From: Macrolepiota albuminosa
Lineage: Eukaryota > Basidiomycota > Agaricomycetes > Agaricales > Agaricaceae
NCBI GenBank assembly: GCA_027475525.1
Contig: JAMWFC010000053.1
Location: forward strand, 248,001-312,000
DNA length: 64,000 nucleotides
Direction: 5' to 3'
The notes under the pieces: model-generated
Databases searched by the model: none
Seen by the model: only the letters and a program-made list of their open reading frames with translations
What the model was told of the DNA's origin: nothing
Position numbers and translations under genes: made by a program
Shown: positions 53,339 to 64,000 of the stretch, piece after piece
How positions within the stretch are numbered: position 1 is the stretch's first letter
Layout: each line of letters begins with the position of its first letter

Positions 53339-54144
53339 TGTCACGACCCCTCCCCCCCGGAACCTCCCCGGGACACCCCCGGAGTCCCATCCGGGAACCT
53401 CTTCCGTCAATCCCACAGCGCACCCCGCCCCCACCGCTACCGACGCCGCCCTCACACGCATCAAGGACCACCATCAGCCATCAACGATCGCCATCAGCCA
53501 GCCCCCGGGACCCCTGCATCACGGACCCCGGGATCACCCGCCATCAACGATCAGATCACGCGGCTCGCATACGGCCATCACGCATCACGCCCCACGCATC
53601 ACGACTCCCTCCGCACCAATTGATCGCGCGTCCCCACACGCGCGATCCCGGTATACAGTCCCCGGCCGCTACTCAATGGCCCCCGGAACTCATCCCAGAC
53701 ACCCCGGAATCCCGAGACACGATCCGTAGTACTTATAGTATAGCTCCCCGTTGTATTCGACAGTCTTGATATTACATACTTTGCATAACTGTTACTTGGA
53801 TATTGCGTGCCCTTTGTTTGACTGGCACGCCTCGTTTGGTACGCTTCGACTGGCACGCCTTAGTATTCGCGTGCTATAAGTTTGGTACGCACTTCGCGAC
53901 TCTTAAATTACTAACTTGGTCTCGTCTTAGAACCTCCGGTTCACGACTCGACCCCCTCTAACTCCCAGCCACTTTCACCCCAAAACCCCCGGACTCTAGT
54001 CCCCCCCTCCCGGGATTACCCTGTCCTCGTCTTGAACCCCGGAGTCCTAGCCCGGAGTTCCAGACACCCGAGTATCCGTAGATCAAGTCCGCATCGTAAG
54101 GGCGTCGCTTTCCCGGAAAGCCCCCGATTCAGCGGAACCTGACA
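53339..54144 (+). repeat. 5' LTR of A2
   Basis: It is 806 bp from TGTCACGACC to CCTGACA. The promoter-like part is near 53731 and the R start near 53762. Confidence 0.95.
53731..53774 (+). promoter_or_regulatory. LTR A promoter and likely transcript start
   Basis: TATA-like acttatagtat starts at 53731. About 30 bp later AGTCTTGATATTA (53762-53774) is the sequence that pairs with the primer site. By analogy with Tf1 the transcript should begin at or very near 53762. Confidence 0.6.
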
Positions 54145-54177: not shown

Positions 54178-56904
54178 ATGGCTACGTATACTCACACCTA
54201 CTACCCCACGGGGTACCAGACCGACCCTTACGGACGCCCGGTACCCGACCACTACTCCGCACAGACCCCCCGCCCTGTCTACCCACCCCTCCCATACGAA
54301 CCTCAGTACCTCCACCGCCACTGGGCCCCCGACCCATCCTTCTATGATCTGGGGCCCTCAGCCAGTTGGGCCCCTCCGCCCAACCTAGCCATGGCACGAC
54401 CCGTGGAGGTCCCCTCGTACCGGAGCATTCCCGGGGGCCTGCCGGAGACCCCTCCTGTACCCAGTGGGCCTCGCCCGATTCCCCCCAGCGAGGGCCCCTT
54501 TGCACCCACCCCCTACTACGGTTACCAGCGCCCCGTCCCCCAACCCCGAGAACCCCGAGGACCCCCCTACCCCGACTACCCCCCTCGTCATTACCCGGCC
54601 GCCGCTCCACCCGCTCGAACCCCTCCCTCGCCAATGGGACGACGACGCCTCGAGGAGTATGAACGGCAACGGGACGAGATACTCCGCTCCCTCAGGATCT
54701 CACCGGAGGACTTCGCGCAACGGACAAGGACGCTGCTTGTGGAGTTCGGGCACGACGACTTCGAAGGCACTCCGGAGGAATGGGCTCACTGCCTGGTCGA
54801 ATTCGGGGATCGCCTCACGCGAGGAGAACTCCCGGAGCAAACCATGGTAAAGTATAGGCGCAATACGATCCTCCGGGAAGAATTACAACAGCTGCTCGAC
54901 GAAGTCCACGCGTCCCCCTCCCCTCGGCCCCTCAACGACCCCGCGGACCCAGGTCGCTCGATTCACATTCGACGGGAACCCCCGGAACCGGCCCCAGCAG
55001 TCCCGGCAGCCCCCACGGTCCCCACTCCGGAGCAACGGCAACGGGAAGAACGGCAGAACGCCTCAGCCATACTACGGTCCCTCAACCCGACGGGAGGCCT
55101 CTTCGATCAACCCGCTGCTCGCACGGTAGGCTTGTCAACTCGCCGCAGGGCTAACTCCGTTCCTAGTACCTTCGAGACCTGGGGACAGCCTCAAAGACCC
55201 CTGGAACCCCTCCCGCGAACAGACAACGCCCGACCCCCGGCCCCGACGAACCCCGGTACAGCCCGGGTGGACACCCCTAGTACGGACGACACGTTATGCT
55301 ACATTGACGAGCTCACGCGCGATAACAACGAACAACGTCCCGCGCCCGCGCCCGCCCCGGCACCAGCACCGCCCGCCACGTCCGCCCCGGCCCCTCCGGA
55401 ACGCAACTTCCGCCGCGATCCGCCACCCCACTTCGACCTACGGAACCCCCCGCGACCCCCGATGCAAGCCCGACCCTCCCGGATTGAACGTCCCCCGCGC
55501 AACCCGGCACCCGACCCAGCACCTAACCCCCCTCCGATCGACCCAACCCCACCAAACCCTCCCCGACCGCCTCCGCCCCCTCCCGCCGAACCTCGAGGAC
55601 GACCCCCAGGACCCCCCCCTCCGCCGCCCCCTGCGTGGAGACCCGGGCCTCCTCCCGGCAGGAACGAGCCCCCGTGGGACAACGGGCCTCCCGGGCGTGG
55701 ACCCCCAGGTGAGCCACCCGGAGGAGGTCCTCCCGGCGGGTGGGGCCCCGCCCTTGGTGCGTTTCCTCCTCAAGGAGGGGGGGGCAATCATTATTACTAT
55801 TATTACAATGCTGGCCCCCCTCCCCGCAACACTGCCGGATCGGACGACGCTCGCGACGCCCTCGCCCGCGAAGGACGATTGGACATTCAAAAGCCCGACG
55901 CTTTCACGGGCCGGGACCCCCGAAAATGGCGTACCTTCCTCACACAATGTCTCAATACGTTTCAGGCAAAGCCGCTCACGTTTCAGGTTGACAGCTCCCG
56001 GGTGGCCTTTGCCGCGTCGTACCTCCAGGGGATCGCCTTCGATCACTACACGGCCCTCATCCAGTTCGACCCCAACAACCCGGCACTCGCTCGCTGGCAA
56101 GCCTTCGTCGACGAGTTCTCCGGGAAATTCGGGATATACGACACCGTGGCCGAGGCCGAGGACAACCTCTTCAACCTCCGGATGCGCTCTGAAGAACGTT
56201 TCACTACCTTCATCGTACGTTTTGAAAAGGAAGCTTACGAGACAGGTTGGAATTACAGCGCCCTCCGGTACGCCCTCCGCCGCGCCCTCCCACAACGTAT
56301 CAAGGACGTCCTCCGACTCGCCCCGAAACAACCCTCCTACGACGGATACAAGGCCCTCGTCATGCAGATCGACCAGCGCTACTGGGAAGACCGCAGCGAG
56401 TATTCGAACTCCCGACCCCCCTGGAACCCTAGAGGAGGACCCCCTTGGCCCTCCGGCGAAGCTCCCAACCCCCAAGGTCGAAACCCCGGTCCCCCCGCGT
56501 TCCCTGGCGGCCGACCCCCGGTGAGTCGCGGCCCGCCCAATGCTAACCCCGGCAGCGGCACCCGCCCCCAGGCCCAGCTCAACGCCGCCGTGGCCACCCA
56601 AGACCCGGGCGACGCGCCAAGCCCCGAGGAACCCCCGGGAGACCCCGAAGACTTCGACTTCGACGACGAACGGGACGAGGAGGCCCTCCGAGCCAACCGG
56701 CTTCAAAAGAAGGGACGACCCTGGATCGAGGTCCCGACGGATGTGCAGGAACGACGGAGAAGGGAGGGCGTCTGCATACTCTGTGGTGAGAAAGATCATT
56801 TCATCTCCGAGTGCCCCAAACGACAGGTCATGGGACGTGCCACCTGGACCTTCGAAGGAGAGGACGCCACCTACGAGTACTCGGAAAACGACCCGGCGAT
56901 TTAG
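54178..56904 (+). CDS. gag: Gag, particle protein of chromovirus A2
   Basis: Gag packs the element RNA into cytoplasmic particles. The ATG at 54178 (MATYTHTYYPTG) is the first after the primer site, and the same start is kept in A1 and A4. The product has 908 residues, long for Ty3 Gag. Residues 1-540 are Pro-rich, with a 7-Pro run near residue 480 and a Tyr patch (NHYYYYYNAG) near 538. The helical Gag core covers about 583-715 (FAASYLQGIAFDHYTALIQF is typical), an acidic linker follows, and the CCHC knuckle [14 protein letters not shown] (from residue 867) binds RNA. It ends at TAG 56902-56904, overlapping pol by 115 nt. Confidence 0.93.
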   Translation: MATYTHTYYPTGYQTDPYGRPVPDHYSAQTPRPVYPPLPYEPQYLHRHWAPDPSFYDLGPSASWAPPPNLAMARPVEVPSYRSIPGGLPETPPVPSGPRPIPPSEGPFAPTPYYGYQRPVPQPREPRGPPYPDYPPRHYPAAAPPARTPPSPMGRRRLEEYERQRDEILRSLRISPEDFAQRTRTLLVEFGHDDFEGTPEEWAHCLVEFGDRLTRGELPEQTMVKYRRNTILREELQQLLDEVHASPSPRPLNDPADPGRSIHIRREPPEPAPAVPAAPTVPTPEQRQREERQNASAILRSLNPTGGLFDQPAARTVGLSTRRRANSVPSTFETWGQPQRPLEPLPRTDNARPPAPTNPGTARVDTPSTDDTLCYIDELTRDNNEQRPAPAPAPAPAPPATSAPAPPERNFRRDPPPHFDLRNPPRPPMQARPSRIERPPRNPAPDPAPNPPPIDPTPPNPPRPPPPPPAEPRGRPPGPPPPPPPAWRPGPPPGRNEPPWDNGPPGRGPPGEPPGGGPPGGWGPALGAFPPQGGGGNHYYYYYNAGPPPRNTAGSDDARDALAREGRLDIQKPDAFTGRDPRKWRTFLTQCLNTFQAKPLTFQVDSSRVAFAASYLQGIAFDHYTALIQFDPNNPALARWQAFVDEFSGKFGIYDTVAEAEDNLFNLRMRSEERFTTFIVRFEKEAYETGWNYSALRYALRRALPQRIKDVLRLAPKQPSYDGYKALVMQIDQRYWEDRSEYSNSRPPWNPRGGPPWPSGEAPNPQGRNPGPPAFPGGRPPVSRGPPNANPGSGTRPQAQLNAAVATQDPGDAPSPEEPPGDPEDFDFDDERDEEALRANRLQKKGRPWIEVPTDVQERRRREGVCILCGEKDHFISECPKRQVMGRATWTFEGEDATYEYSENDPAI

Positions 56905-59900
56905 ACCCGGAAGACGCCCTAAATCGCGGAATCGACCCCGACGTCTTCTCCGCCCCGGTTTCCCACCTTCGCTCCACGACACTCGTACAGGACACCCTCA
57001 CGGCTTACCTACCCTCCCACTCCTCGCACTCCCTCCTCCTCAACACCCGCCTCACCCCCTCCGGAACCCCCCTCAACACCCTCGTCGACAGTGGCGCCAC
57101 CGACAACTTCATCGACGAAGCATTGTCTGCCTTGGCCCCGGAACCCGCTCAACGACTCCCGGTCCCGGTACGACTCTGCCTCTTTGACGGAGACGCCTCC
57201 ACGGCGGGGAACATCACCCATTTCGTGCGTATGCCCGTTACCTTCGCCAACGGACAGACTCACACCCTGCGGATGTTGATGACCAAACTTCACCCCTCCA
57301 CACCCCTCGTCTTAGGGCTCCCATGGCTCCGGGACACCAACCCCCGCGTCGATTGGCGACACCTCACCCTTCGCCTGACCCGGGACCCGACGCCCGACGA
57401 CCAACAACTTCCCTTCGACATCCCCCACCCCCCAAGACCAACCCCGAAGGACTCCCCGGACGAACCCCCACCACCCCCGGGACTCCAGTCTCGCTCGTCC
57501 CGGTCCTTCGTCATCAATGCCAGGCTGGACGGCACCCCCGGGCCGATATCGGCCCTCATCGACAGCGGAGCCACCGGGGTCTTCATCAGCGACACCCTCG
57601 ACCTCCCTCACGACCCCCTCGACCAGCCCCTTCGCCTGCAGCGCCTCGACGGCACTCCCTCCGCCTCCGGCCCCATCAAGAGGTCTCATTCAGGACGCGT
57701 GACCCTGGACAACGGCTACGAGTTCACCTCCGACTTCCTGGTCACGCGACTTCACGAATCGACCCCGATGGTGCTGGGATTACCCTGGCTGCGCGACACA
57801 AACCCCGACATCGATTGGAGGACGCTCACCATGACCTTCCCGGGACCCGAAGACCACCCCTCGACCGCCGTGCACCTCCGAGCCCTAGGAGGCGACCCGA
57901 CGCCCGACACCCCCGGGACGACTGCCGCGCCCCCCGCGCATGCCCCACCCACGCCCGTCCGAGACCTCAAGGCCCCTGATCGACCCCCAAACATTCCTCG
58001 GAACAAGTACAAAGGGCCGAACTACCCCTGCCGGTCTCCGACACGCGTCACACCCGCTCCGGCCGATGCCTCCGCGACCCCGACCGACCCGAGCGCACTC
58101 GACATCAAGATCATTGGGGCCGCCCCCTTCGCCCGCCTCATGAGGGACGGGACTCCCACGTTTCAGCTGCACACCTCACCTTCTCTCCCGGAAGAACACC
58201 TACGAGGGGACGCCATTCCCCCGGAACAGAAAACCGAGGAGCAGATCCTCCGAGAAGTAGTTCCCCCGGAGTATCACGAGTTCGCTGACGTATTCTCCGA
58301 AGGAGACGCCAAGGAGATCCCCCCTCACCGCCCCTATGATCACACCATCGACCTCGAGGAAGGAGCCACCCCCCCTTTCGGCAAGGTCTACAACATGTCG
58401 GAGGTCGAACTCCGGGCTCTCAAGGACTACCTCGACGAAATGCTCGGTAAAGGATTCATCCGACCCTCCGCCTCCGCCGCCGGAGCCCCGGTTCTATTCG
58501 CCAAGAAGAAGGACGGCTCGCTCCGACTCTGCGTCGACTACCGGGGACTCAACAAGATCACCAAGAAGAACCGCTACCCGCTCCCGCTCATCGGCGATCT
58601 GGTCGATCGACTTCGCAGTGCCAAAGTCTACACGAAGATCGACCTCCGCTCCGGCTACAACAACGTCCGCATCGCCCCGGGACACGAGTGGAAAACCGCG
58701 TTCCGCACGCGGTATGGTCTGTTTGAGTACCTTGTGATGCCTTTCGGAATGACTAACTCCCCCGCTACGTTCCAATACTTCATGAACGACATCTTCCACG
58801 ACATGAGCGACGTCTTCGTGATCGTCTACCTGGACGACATCCTCATTTATTCCGACTCACCGGAGGATCACCAAAAGCATGTCCGGCAAGTCCTCGAGCG
58901 CCTCCGGGAGCACAATCTCCACGCCAAGCCCGAGAAGTGTTCATTCCATACGGAAGAGGTCGAGTATCTTGGCGTCATAGTATCCCCGAATGGCGTTCGC
59001 ATGGACCCCCACAAGGTCGAGGCCATCGTCAACTGGCCGCAGCCCCGGAACGTCAAGGAAGTACAGTCCTTCCTGGGTTTCGCTAACTTCTACCGGAGGT
59101 TTATAGACAACTACTCCGGGATCACGAAACCCCTCAACCGGCTCACGCGCAAGGACATCGCCTGGAACTGGGACAGTAAGTGCCAGAGCGTCTTTAACTT
59201 GCTCAAGGAGGCTTTCACAGTCGCCCCGGTACTCCGGCACTACGACCCGGCCCTCCCGATCATCCTGGAATGTGACGCCTCCGACTACGCCATCGCCGGG
59301 ATCCTCTCGCAGGTGGAACCTGACGGCGGGGAGCCCCGGCCAGTCGCCTTCTACACCCGGTCCATGATCGACGCCGAACTCAACTACGACATCTACGACA
59401 AGGAGCTTCTCGCCATCGTCGAAGCCTTCAAGCAGTGGCGAGCCTACCTCGAGGGAGCCCGGCACCGGATCCAGGTCTATTCGGATCATAACAACCTGCA
59501 GTACTTCACCACGACCAAGCAACTCAGTCGACGACAGGCCCGATGGTCCGAGATCCTCTCGGAATACGACTTCACGATCCAGTACCGCCCGGGACGACTT
59601 GGCGCCAAACCCGATGCCCTCACCCGTCGACCGGACGTCTACCCTAAGAAGTCATTCGAGGCGGAACGTAATGCGTTCAATCATCGCGTGGTGATCCCTC
59701 CCGAACATTTGAATGCCTTACTGATCTTAAACGAGGAAGGGACCCTGAGTCAGATTCGCCGCGCCCCCCGAGACAAGTACTTCACCGATCACGACCCCCG
59801 CAACCCCCCTGATGGAACCGACCGGGACCCCGCCTTCTCCCTGTCCCCCGACGAAAAACTCCTCCTCCGGGACGGCCGCATCTACGTCCCGGATCACGCC

Positions 59901-60926
59901 CGACTTCGCTACGACGTCCTCCGTCAACACCACGACCACAAGCTCCGGGGACACCCTGGAATACGTAAGACCCTCCAGCTCATCTCCCGGACTTACTTTT
60001 GGCCAGGGTTGAAGAAGGACGTGACCCGTTACATTCGATCATGCGAGCCCTGCCTCCGGGCCAAGGTCCCCCGACACCGACCGTACGGACTCCTGAAACC
60101 CCTGCCGGTCGGACGACGCCCCTGGTCCTCAATATCTCTGGACCACATCGTCGAGCTCCCGGAATCTGAAGGGTTCGATGCTATTCTCGTCGTTGTGTGC
60201 AGGCTAACCAAACAGGGCATCTTCCTACCCTGCCACACCACGGATACCGCCCCGGACTTCGCCCGGCTGTTCCTCGAGCACGTCTTCGCCAAGCATGGTC
60301 TCCCGGACGACATCGTCTCCGACCGGGGCCCTCTCTTCGTGTCCAAGTTTTGGACTTCCCTGTGTAAGGCACTTGAAGTAAAGACTAACCTCTCTACCGC
60401 CTACCACCCCGAAACCGACGGCCAAACCGAAAGGGTCAACCAGTCCCTCGAGCAGTACCTCCGGCTGTACGTCAACTACTTGCAGGACGACTGGCGCGCC
60501 GAGCTCCCCCTGGCCGAGTTCACCTACAACAACACGCCACACTCTGCCACCGGGGTATCACCCTTCTTTGCCAACAAAGGATACCACCCCCGACTGACGC
60601 TCTCGCTCCGGGACATCCCGTCGCACGCCGCCCATGAGGTCGCCCGGGATCTCCAATCCCTTCACGAGTTTCTCCGGGAAGAGATCGACACCGCGAACCG
60701 GGCCTACGTGAAACACGCCGACCGGAAACGGGAAGACACCCCCGACTGGGCCCCCGGGACAAAGGTATGGTTAGATCGACGACACCTCCGCACCCGCCGG
60801 CCCTCCCCAAAACTCGATCACAAGCGTCTCGGCCCGTTCAAAATTTTGAAGAAGGTCTCATCCCACGCCTACAAGATCGATCCCCAAAACTCGATCACAA
60901 GCGTCTCGGCCCGTTCAAAATTTTGA
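56790..60926 (+). CDS. pol: Pol of A2: two proteases, RT, RNase H, integrase
   Basis: The frame is -1 relative to gag and opens at 56790 after TGA. There are two retropepsin modules: [12 protein letters not shown] (Asp codon 57087) with [16 protein letters not shown], and [12 protein letters not shown] (57561) with [18 protein letters not shown] has [13 protein letters not shown] and [10 protein letters not shown] (Tyr codon 58827). RNase H starts with ECDASDY (59274). Integrase has the HHCC finger (His 59928 region, CEPC at 60042-60053), Asp 60141, Asp 60321 and Glu 60429, the last two exactly 35 residues apart. It ends prematurely at 60926 because of the 77-bp duplication at 60804; the chromodomain follows in another frame. 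Expression must need recoding, as there is no good ATG at its start. Confidence 0.93.
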
Positions 60927-60959: not shown

Positions 60960-61287
60960 CCCCCCGGGACTTAAAGGCCTGCACCCGGTTTTCCACGTCC
61001 GCCTCCTGGAACGACACCCCCCGGATCCCTTCTCCGAACGACGACCCGAACCCCCTCCCCCGGTCGAGGTCGAGGACGAGTACCACTACGAGGTCGAAGA
61101 CATCCTCGACTCCCGGAACATTCGTGGGCGACCCCACTTCCTCGTACGATGGAAGGGATACGGCCCGGAGGACGACACTTGGGAACCGCGACGAAACCTC
61201 GAAGGCGCTCTCGACAAACTCCGGGACTTCCAGCGACGGCACCCGGGAGACGACCCCCCCGGGCGCAGGACTCACAGACGGCAGTAG
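60960..61287 (+). pseudogene. pol: Integrase tail and chromodomain of A2, out of frame
   Basis: Frame position 1 reads [19 protein letters not shown], then the chromodomain [14 protein letters not shown] and [17 protein letters not shown] (about 61081-61195), ending RRTHRRQ and TAG at 61285-61287. Besides the duplication, one base is missing near 60957-60963 (A1 has gagcttcccccg where A2 has gaatcccccc), so even with one 77-bp unit the frame would be off by one. All chromodomain aromatic positions are kept, so the break is recent or an assembly error at the join. Confidence 0.8.
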
Positions 61288-61561
61288 TGGGCGTAACCCC
61301 CGCCTCTGGACTCAACCGGGATTCAACTCCCACGTATACTTACTGCTTTCCCCCTTTCTTTTTCCGACCTTACCTACCGTTTAGTACTTTCTTTTACAAT
61401 AGCGCCCCTGACTCTGGGCAAGGTATTCTTTCCCGTTTCCCCGCCACTTTACTTACACCATTCTCCCCGAGAGTAACCAGGTATATACATTTTCTTTTCT
61501 ATAGTACACTATACTACAGTACGAATCGCGAAACCGGCAGACGACAAGAAAACGGGGGCCC

Positions 61562-63346
61562 CTAGAGTTGGGACCCCGAACTACCCTCCCCCTCCCCTCC
61601 CCTCGGCCAGCCCCGGAAATCCTCCCCCACCTCCTCTGGACCGTGCGCGCGCCAGACCTCCTCGGCCAACTGGTCCCAAGACGGGAGCTGCTCGCCCTCG
61701 TCCAGGACCCGCTCGAACCATGACCCCGGGGCCGGGACGTTTCTCCGGCGATGCGCTACCACCAGCCTCCCCAACAAGTCCAGGCCCCGCTCCACCCCGG
61801 GGTCCCCTGCCTCCGACCGGAGCCCCTCTTGCAGGGACGCGAGCGCCGCGGCAGCCCCGTCCAGGAGCAGGCGATGCTCCCGAGCCCAGCCTGGAGATGT
61901 CAGAATCGACCCAACCGCGAGAAGAGGAAAACACTCACTTAGAGAGGCCATACGTCCGACGACCACGTCCCGGCGCAAGGCCTCAACCAACTCTGAGCCC
62001 GAGGGACCCTGCGCCGGGATCCCCACCCCCTGCTCCAGCCTGGCCCGCATAGCGTCCAGCTGGGCCTCGACTCCCCCCCGGGCCACCCTCGCCTCCTCCA
62101 GCTCCCGGAGGGCGGCCTCGCGACCCTCCTCCAGACCCCTCCGGATCGCCGCCTCCTCCCTTGCCCCCTCCTCTCGCTCCTCTCGCTCCCGGTCGGCCTG
62201 CTCGAGGCGCTCCTGCAGGGCCCTCACCTCGACATCCAACGGCCGCCCCGACAGCGGAGAAAAAGTCGCCGGCGAGAGGCGCACTGGGGAAGGCGGGGAC
62301 GGAGTCTGGGAGGCCGGGGAGGGGGCCTCCGCGGGCAGACGCGCCCTTTTGGAGGGCCCCGGGGAGGGGCTAGGCGACGCCCGCCGTTTTCCCTTATCAG
62401 GGCGCCCGCCGCGCCCCTCGCGCCCCGGGGCTCCGGACCGGGTTACCCGACGCGTGATCAAGACCACGGGCCGGCCCCGGCCGCTCTCCCGGACGACCCC
62501 CCCTCCCCCAGCCCCGCCCCCAGGACCCTCCACTGGCGCCGCCTCCGGAACCGCCGCCGTCCCCGCGACCCAATCCCTCTCCTCGACACCCATCCTCCGA
62601 GTAATGCCCGCCAAGGGCCAACCCTGCTCCCGCGAAACGCAATAGGCCCTCCAAAGGGCCGAAACGGAACACCGCTCGTGATTGAAGCGGCAGGCGTCGC
62701 ACACGGAGGTGTCGCGCCGGGACGAGACGGTCGGGACCTCGAAGGAGCAAATGACGTTGCGACGCGCGCAGTGAAGACACTAGGCACCCGGTTTAGCCCC
62801 GGAATCAGAGGTAGGAGGCCACTTACCGGCCCGTTGCTGACACACCACGCGTGGGGAGGCAAGCCCCGGGGCCTCACCAATGCCCCCTCGAAGGCCTCCT
62901 GCGTGGCACTGGCCCACGCAACCCGTTGGGTATCGGGAACCTCCGAAATGGCCCCCACCGCCATCCCGGAGCGACGGAACCGAGGGGCGACGAGTCTAGG
63001 GCGAGGAGGGGGTGGGGGGCGAGGGGGACGCACGGTCATCCGCGCAAAGGTTGGCGCGGGACGACTCGGCTGAGGCTCCGGGGGGACACTAGGCCCAGCC
63101 TCGGGGACGGGCTCCGAGAGCCGGCTGGGACCCGCCTCGGGTGCCGGAATATTGCGTTGTTCTGAAAAGGGAAGGTTAGTAGGGCAAAGGGGCGGCACGG
63201 GGGTACTCACGTTGTTCGAAGAGCGCCGCTACGCGCTCACGGTCGAGACGAGCCCGGTAACGCGCGTCCCGGGCTCCCCACGCCATGAGGGGCGCGACCT
63301 CGTTCGTCTGCGGGGGCGTCGGGGAATGCGTCGGCGTTCGCGACAT
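61562..63346 (-). CDS. Intact antisense accessory gene of A2: Zn-cluster/coiled-coil protein
   Basis: I do not know a named family. The minus-strand exons 63346-63211, 63161-62827, 62779-61939 and 61890-61562 sum to 1641 nt, 546 residues plus stop, with no frame break. The introns (49, 47, 48 nt) are GT-AG; the first has the branch CTACTAAC. The protein starts MSRTPTHSPTPP and has a Pro-rich part (residues about 50-110). Exactly at the exon 2/3 junction comes CLHCARRNVIC (158-168), then CDACRFNHERC (184-194): C-x2-C-x6-C-x15-C-x2-C-x6-C, close to the fungal Zn2Cys6 pattern but with a longer loop. A basic KRRASPSPSP stretch, a Glu/Arg-rich coiled coil (about 290-370) and a conserved C-terminus with LDEGEQLPSWDQLAEEVW follow. 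It is convergent with pol. A1 and A3 keep the gene and its introns. A DNA- or RNA-binding regulator of the element is my guess. Confidence 0.8.
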
Positions 63347-63474
63347 AGTTGGGTTTGATGGTAAAATTTTTTTTTCGTTACGTGGCAGGACAGGCGCCGG
63401 TTCCCACGCTCAAGCCCGGTCCGGACCTCCGGCTACGCGCGCCTCGGAGGGTCTCGGCGCTGAGGGGGGGGTGA
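63347..63474 (-). promoter_or_regulatory. Leader of the antisense gene and polypurine tract
   Basis: On the minus strand the ATG is preceded by a conserved block: cacgtaacg, a run of A, ttttaccatcaaac. Equivalent blocks stand before the ATG in A1 (about 35004-35042) and A3 (about 14101-14138). On the plus strand gaggggggggtga (up to 63474) is the polypurine tract, so the antisense promoter must lie here or in the 3' LTR. Confidence 0.55.
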
Positions 63475-64000
63475 TGTCACGACCCCTCCCCCCCGGAACC
63501 TCCCCGGGACACCCCCGGAGTCCCATCCGGGAACCTCTTCCGTCAATCCCACAGCGCACCCCGCCCCCACCGCTACCGACGCCGCCCTCACACGCATCAA
63601 GGACCACCATCAGCCATCAACGATCGCCATCAGCCAGCCCCCGGGACCCCTGCATCACGGACCCCGGGATCACCCGCCATCAACGATCAGATCACGCGGC
63701 TCGCATACGGCCATCACGCATCACGCCCCACGCATCACGACTCCCTCCGCACCAATTGATCGCGCGTCCCCACACGCGCGATCCCGGTATACAGTCCCCG
63801 GCCGCTACTCAATGGCCCCCGGAACTCATCCCAGACACCCCGGAATCCCGAGACACGATCCGTAGTACTTATAGTATAGCTCCCCGTTGTATTCGACAGT
63901 CTTGATATTACATACTTTGCATAACTGTTACTTGGATATTGCGTGCCCTTTGTTTGACTGGCACGCCTCGTTTGGTACGCTTCGACTGGCACGCCTTAGT
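63475..64000 (+). repeat. 3' LTR of A2 (partial)
   Basis: The first 526 bp of LTR A are present, identical to 53339-53864. The window ends before its 3' part and before the right target duplication. Confidence 0.95.

Follow-up and report, generated by a model that had tools for sequence, protein, structure and literature searches.

The window, a 64,000-nt stretch of the Macrolepiota albuminosa genome, ends within a Ty3 chromovirus that carries, besides gag and pol, a spliced gene on the opposite strand. The features of the element and of the antisense gene are as follows, in window coordinates.

53339..54144, plus strand: 5' LTR of 806 nt, TGTCACG...TGACA, identical to the 3' LTR
55801..56901, plus strand: gag frame, partial, matching Retrotrans_gag and, at a score under the cut-off, a zinc knuckle
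56811..60926, plus strand: pol frame (RT, RNase H, integrase), stopping early in this copy at a 77-nt tandem duplication
61087..61239, plus strand: chromodomain (PF00385)
61562..61890, minus strand: exon 4, with the conserved WAREHxLLLDG domain and the stop
61891..61938, minus strand: intron 3, 48 nt
61939..62779, minus strand: exon 3, with cysteine cluster, basic stretch and predicted coiled coil
62021..62230, minus strand: charged stretch, residues 341-410, a candidate coiled coil that is a long helix in the model of the Termitomyces homologue P0001
62339..62395, minus strand: basic stretch KGKRRASPSPSPGPSKRAR, residues 286-304, a candidate nuclear localisation signal judged by eye
62639..62844, minus strand: cysteine cluster, residues 152-204 (eight Cys, one His), with intron 2 inside the span
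62780..62826, minus strand: intron 2, 47 nt
62827..63161, minus strand: exon 2
63162..63210, minus strand: intron 1, 49 nt
63211..63346, minus strand: exon 1, with the ATG at 63346
63347..63474, minus strand: leader between the gene's ATG and the 3' LTR, containing a conserved block rich in A/T and, on the sense strand, a purine tract
63475..64000, plus strand: 3' LTR, which runs on to 64280, beyond the window

The carrier element is full length (53339-64280), is flanked on both sides by runs of A and has two 806-nt LTRs without any difference between them; it is complete and very young. The order RT-RNase H-integrase, a C-terminal chromodomain and the LTRs identify it as a Ty3 chromovirus, with gag, RT, RNase H, integrase H2C2 and chromodomain scoring above their Pfam cut-offs and the integrase core (rve) of the window element below its own. 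Six further copies had 0 substitutions in the 1785 nt of the antisense gene relative to the window, and from the identical LTRs together with the identical gene copies we conclude that this chromovirus family is, or was until very recently, active. In the window copy the chromodomain is out of the pol frame owing to the 77-nt duplication. The duplicated units are at 60813 and 60890, near the end of pol, and the pol frame ends at 60926, before the chromodomain; a search with mismatches allowed found two copies 77 nt apart in five more loci (L011, L031, L034, L035 and L038).

The antisense gene is located tail to tail with pol, antisense to gag-pol and between pol and the 3' LTR, which is the place that characterizes an aORF-3R. 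The first-pass annotation had described an intact spliced gene of four exons with an exact 546-codon frame and three short introns, and this description was confirmed: the joined exons comprise 1641 nt, or 546 codons plus TAG, and the introns of 49, 47 and 48 nt have GTGAGT/GTAAGT donors, YAG acceptors and branch-like motifs CTAAC, CTAAA and CTGAC. Two other copies in the window had been reported to retain the same introns and protein ends, which is only partly right. The copy at 33-35 kb keeps introns 2 and 3, has an intron 1 enlarged by internal duplication and contains one non-terminal stop, while the copy at 14-17 kb keeps introns 1 and 3, lacks the AG at the aligned end of intron 2, and has nearly 1 kb of extra sequence and 27 stops in its reading. 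The duplication in the 33-35 kb copy is partial and includes exon sequence along with intron 1. In many copies, one AACAAC-like word borders intron 1 on either side (window 63156-63216).

Copies were sought in the 100-Mb genome using a DNA search, in which 40 of 646 candidates were scored (43 matches), and a protein search, in which 79 of 2071 candidates were scored, such that counts from both are lower bounds. Among the DNA-search matches listed, 10 had 99.9-100% identity, the window's own included, and the remaining listed matches, pieces included, had 74-89%. We examined 39 loci with their flanks (L009-L047), picked because they carry the gene, and added L048 and L049 without flanks; introns were counted on 31 distinct rows after identical rows (L047, L017, L023 and L026) were dropped, with the window row standing for the six copies whose gene is identical to the window's. 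Intron 1 was present in 28, intron 2 in 30 and intron 3 in all 31 rows. GT was kept in 27/28, 30/30 and 31/31 of these and AG in 28/28, 30/30 and 30/31, respectively, both exceptions being single-base changes, and a CTRA-type branch motif occurred near the 3' end of every intron (28/28, 30/30 and 31/31). Intron lengths ranged from 44 to 51 nt and interiors varied freely, while splice sites were retained at nucleotide divergence up to ~26%. L049, which had the lowest protein identity among the copies taken and lies outside the 31-row counts, has an altered donor 1 and acceptor 2. The earlier proposal that the introns survive in copies of the element is thus borne out, as expected if only sense RNA is reverse-transcribed, and the family offers a natural case of introns retained through reverse transcription. 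A supposed intronless subfamily, eight copies of equal score shown as one open frame, was discarded: L048, the one examined, has all three introns.

Pol and/or chromodomain were found beside the gene in 36 of the 39 loci, with an LTR intervening in L032, and an LTR lay on the gene's other side in 38 of the 39, the exception (L041) starting at a contig end; as these loci were selected for the gene, the counts describe its neighbours and not the share of elements that carry it. Neither pol nor chromodomain was next to the gene in L025, L026 (identical to L025 over the gene) and L028, which are perhaps non-autonomous or truncated elements that retained it. No host-only copy of the gene was found among the scored candidates (DNA 40/646, protein 79/2071). 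In L032, a sense-oriented stretch (1954-2907) adjoining the gene-bearing copy has a chromodomain with an LTR immediately after it and no antisense gene in between, and is perhaps an element without the gene or the product of a deletion.

The start, all splice sites and the full frame were intact in 8 of the 31 rows (window, L010, L011, L012, L013, L033, L037 and L048), and not intact in the other 23. Selection on the protein was assessed in the ten pairs formed by five distinct intact lineages (window, L012, L033, L037 and L048). We found dN/dS values of 0.15-0.30 (NG86) and 0.08-0.21 (YN00); the first-pass annotation had named dN/dS among copies as a check, and the NG86 range is well below 1. 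When the same substitutions were placed at random in four of the pairs, mean dN/dS was 0.93-0.99 and none of the 300 runs made for each pair attained the observed value; third positions held 55-63% of the observed changes in these pairs vs. at most 38% in the randomized runs. dN was lower than dS in 58 of 60 segment comparisons, both exceptions coming from residues 85-157, where there was almost no change, and the highest dN fell within residues 231-437 (linker, basic part and helix) in nine of the ten pairs, with a tie in the tenth. These results show strong constraint at the amino-acid level on the predicted antisense protein.

The protein has eight Cys in total (residues 152, 158, 161, 168, 184, 187, 194 and 204), of which six form the cluster C-x2-C-x6-C-x15-C-x2-C-x6-C at residues 158-194, that is, two C-x2-C-x6-C halves as in Zn2Cys6 (PF00172). 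The linker between the halves of a Zn2Cys6 cluster spans 5-12 residues (PROSITE-like pattern), and the 15-residue linker found here is outside that range. The Zn_clus score was 16.7 bits, below the Pfam cut-off of 21. The cluster had been described as Zn2Cys6-like, but membership of Zn2Cys6 was not established, given this score, the eight Cys plus a His, and the lack of a fold match. An AlphaFold model of P0001 (mean pLDDT 62.9) contains a long confident helix in the middle, and a model of 75 residues of the window's exon 3 (mean pLDDT 64.2) has short helices at both CxxC sites; neither of these weak models matched a known fold, and a sequence search of the PDB gave no match for the Termitomyces profile. 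L033, one of the five intact lineages, has Tyr in place of Cys161, as does the Termitomyces protein P0003. We regard the region as likely a zinc module of some type.

Homologues of the protein occur in Termitomyces. The first protein search returned six Termitomyces proteins with 32-39% identity (33-39% in the three longest matches). A region search for homologues with a single sequence found none, but a profile built from two lineages of this genome and two Termitomyces proteins, with low-complexity parts masked, found 131 at E <= 1, and the best 120 of the 131 were all from Termitomyces; no homologue was found in viral contigs. The Termitomyces proteins (for example P0001, P0002 and J132_00230) are listed merely as 'hypothetical protein', and 119 of the 120 listed homologues matched the window gene in tblastn at E <= 0.01. 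They share with it the Cys/His module, the basic stretch and the WAREHxLLLDG domain, such that the protein is conserved within the family and in related species, as in an aORF-3R. In 38 rows hand-chosen from the 120, the eight Cys columns contained no residue other than Cys, leaving aside two Tyr and gaps in 2-10 rows, and no other residue took the place of the second-half His (9 gaps); P0038, which is not among the 38, has no third Cys in its first half. Weak Zn_clus matches at E <= 1 were obtained for 22 of the 38, the best at 0.0022.

Gene models further suggest that Termitomyces shares both the place and the introns of the gene. Twelve of the 120 models (P0010, 16, 17, 20, 31, 38, 63, 67, 73, 97, 101 and 107) also matched the antisense (minus) strand of integrase and/or chromodomain, with 38-52% identity over longer pieces, and in the six inspected (P0010, 16, 20, 31, 38 and 67) this part follows the gene's own end. 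Such tails are the read-through expected if the gene is tail to tail with chromovirus pol in Termitomyces too, which indicates, by gene models, that the place of the gene is common to both genera. Extra peptides were observed at the position of intron 3 (between GVLR/H and WAREH) in five of 38 aligned models (P0018, 33, 37, 44 and 49), at that of intron 2 (between P and CASC) in two (P0018 and P0030) and close to the intron-1 position in P0018, in P0049 and, partly, in P0019, 25 and 26. The intron-3 peptide back-translates to what would be a GTGAGTGG...CTGAC...CAG intron, and the Termitomyces genes thus show signs of the window gene's introns. Judged by sequence, chromoviruses in this genome and, by gene models, in Termitomyces carry a coding gene opposite gag-pol that meets pol tail to tail; in the present genome the gene has three short introns, and selection is visible on its splice sites, its reading frame and its protein. 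A many-copy family of 'hypothetical' Termitomyces proteins would thereby be explained as genes of elements.

The history of the gene differs from that of pol. Over six pairs, dS was 0.39-0.72 in the antisense gene vs. 0.11-0.24 in pol (NG86). Eight copies with a complete pol stretch were compared with the window in steps of 250 nt; identity was 87-99% across pol, with a single value of 82% at the window's duplication, and 67-90% across the spacer and antisense gene, the drop occurring near 61290, at the end of pol. In contrast, comparison of L010, L047 and L011 with the window gave nine differences over the 328-329 sites of the chromodomain stretch, none over the 273 of the spacer next to it and 1-2 over the 1785 of the antisense gene. 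Contrasting divergence on either side of the pol end indicates that the sequence right of pol has been transferred from one pol background to another; the antisense gene is more divergent than the pol it adjoins, and the module appears to be older than its pol. L044 has an identical antisense gene and chromodomain stretch, and its pol stretch is replaced by unalignable sequence with an LTR fragment.

The antisense gene itself is a mosaic. Between L012 and L037, dS was 0.02 in residues 85-157 and 0.80 in residues 438-546. Distances were correlated across 25 copies, namely the window's and those at 24 of the 39 loci; identical rows, deleted copies, loci lacking pol and the remainder were set aside. 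Three blocks emerged: exon 1 and leader with the LTR (0.68), exon 2 with the Cys region (0.76), and the helix/basic part with exon 4 (0.87). Correlations between blocks were lower, the highest inside the gene being 0.45 (Cys region vs. helix/basic part). Co-evolution of the Cys region with the LTR was not found (Spearman's ρ = 0.16, 25 copies), which argues against a simple picture in which the protein co-evolves with its own LTR.

Antisense genes are already known at this place in plants and in Botrytis, and a spliced, Cys-rich one is the variant added here. PMC7264820 and PMC11963269 describe plant aORFs in maize Grande (gene23), rice RIRE2, Silene Retand (ORF4) and PvRetro13, which resemble the present gene in being antisense between pol and the 3' LTR and common to related species; the first-pass annotation, too, had mentioned such ORFs in some plant LTR elements. 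Grande gene23 encodes a nuclear protein with a TRP28 domain predicted to bind DNA. The plant proteins differ from ours by having other domains (TRP28, SMC), and Retand does not belong to the chromoviruses. The paper on Retand (PMC11963269) never uses the word 'intron', and the 2020 review (PMC7264820) only calls for looking at spliced antisense transcripts and leaves open the function of antisense ORFs in LTR elements. In fungi, brtn is an antisense additional gene of Boty-like elements in Botrytis cinerea (Zhao et al. 2011, cited in PMC8365987 and PMC4227169); Boty-like gag-pol has a CHROMO domain (PMC4227169), and Boty is among the elements with an antisense ORF between pol and the 3' LTR (PMC7264820). 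Compared by description, brtn is likewise an antisense additional gene of a fungal Ty3 element with a CHROMO domain, and differs in its ascomycete host. An antisense gene has therefore already been published for a fungal Ty3 element with a chromodomain, contrary to the novelty suggested earlier. What stands of that suggestion is that, in the literature searched, with most subscription papers outside reach, we found no antisense gene of an LTR retrotransposon described as spliced or as having several introns, nor one with this Cys module.

As for function, we lean slightly towards a spliced antisense mRNA that would encode a nuclear, oligomeric protein binding nucleic acid or chromatin and serving the element, most likely through the element's own transcription or protection from silencing. 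Transcription of the gene would be driven by an antisense promoter, located either within the 3' LTR or in the conserved, short leader adjoining it, and the host would splice the antisense RNA, giving rise to a nuclear protein whose eight-Cys/His module may bind nucleic acid or chromatin and whose long helix may mediate oligomer formation. The genomic RNA that is reverse-transcribed would be sense, placing the antisense introns in an RNA without usable splice sites, and the introns would persist through retrotransposition because of this. Transcription, splicing in the cell, zinc binding, nuclear location and regulation are what we infer here from features of the DNA and protein. HBZ has a spliced mRNA and is a basic leucine zipper protein and, to our knowledge, is without a Cys cluster of the antisense protein's kind. 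HBZ of HTLV-1 is nuclear (PMC11963269) and is encoded by an antisense gene adjoining the 3' LTR, and a basic region with a coiled coil is what we propose for the antisense protein; HTLV-1 is a retrovirus, unlike the present element, and the two are likened by description. By this analogy the protein would most likely regulate the element's own transcription or shield its copies from silencing. These elements probably make a nuclear accessory protein, as some retroviruses do, which is a candidate regulator.

The same features could be read in other ways. The protein might instead be an accessory factor of the replication cycle, for example one that chaperones nucleic acids, or one that works with the chromodomain integrase to bring the integration complex into the nucleus or to its target. 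A Cys-rich module with a basic stretch suits RNA or DNA binding, and roles like those of retroviral accessory proteins have been suggested for plant antisense ORFs (PMC7264820), but a separate antisense transcript would be an awkward supply route for a component of particles, and we consider this reading unlikely, albeit worth keeping in view. Somewhat more doubtful is that the protein acts against silencing, keeping family copies active in the face of host DNA methylation or RNA silencing: the rapid and mosaic evolution of the gene could come from such an arms race, although dN remained below dS in 58/60 segment comparisons.

Readings in which the protein does not matter to the element have far less in their favor. 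LTR elements can produce antisense transcripts that encode no protein (PMC7264820), and the antisense RNA might matter in itself by forming double-stranded RNA with genomic RNA, the reading frame being a by-product; constraint at the amino-acid level, splice signals kept in diverged copies and conservation of the protein in Termitomyces make this very improbable. The idea that a host gene was captured recently and is mere cargo, doing nothing for the element, deserves no more credit, despite introns that resemble those of host genes, as place and orientation are alike in two genera (by gene models), copies have diverged strongly under constraint, and most of the copies fetched lie between pol and LTR, with no host-only copy among the best candidates scored. 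Finally, the abundance of mechanical ORFs on both strands of this GC-rich region could favor a chance long frame with coincidental splice-like sites, but that explanation was rejected with near certainty because no randomization reached the observed dN/dS in any of the four pairs (0/300 each), splice sites are kept to ~26% divergence and the protein is conserved across genera.

The regulatory protein that we favor can be placed in a broader picture, which we offer only tentatively: agaric chromoviruses may have an ancient third gene, antisense and with three introns, whose nuclear eight-Cys/His protein would control the element from its own 3' end in an HBZ-like manner that arose independently in retrotransposons, and which would have been swapped among lineages as mosaic blocks and gone unrecognized as more than 100 Termitomyces 'hypothetical proteins'. 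The spliced antisense mRNA it calls for is checkable in any stranded RNA-seq set. Two sites could serve as its promoter. Read antisense, the LTR contains CTATAAGTACT in 12 of 12 aligned copies, and the A/T-rich block of the leader lies directly before the gene's ATG; either is a candidate. Many ATGs lie between the LTR site and the gene's ATG, such that a start at the LTR TATAAG would leave numerous upstream ATGs in the transcript, which speaks for the leader as the promoter.
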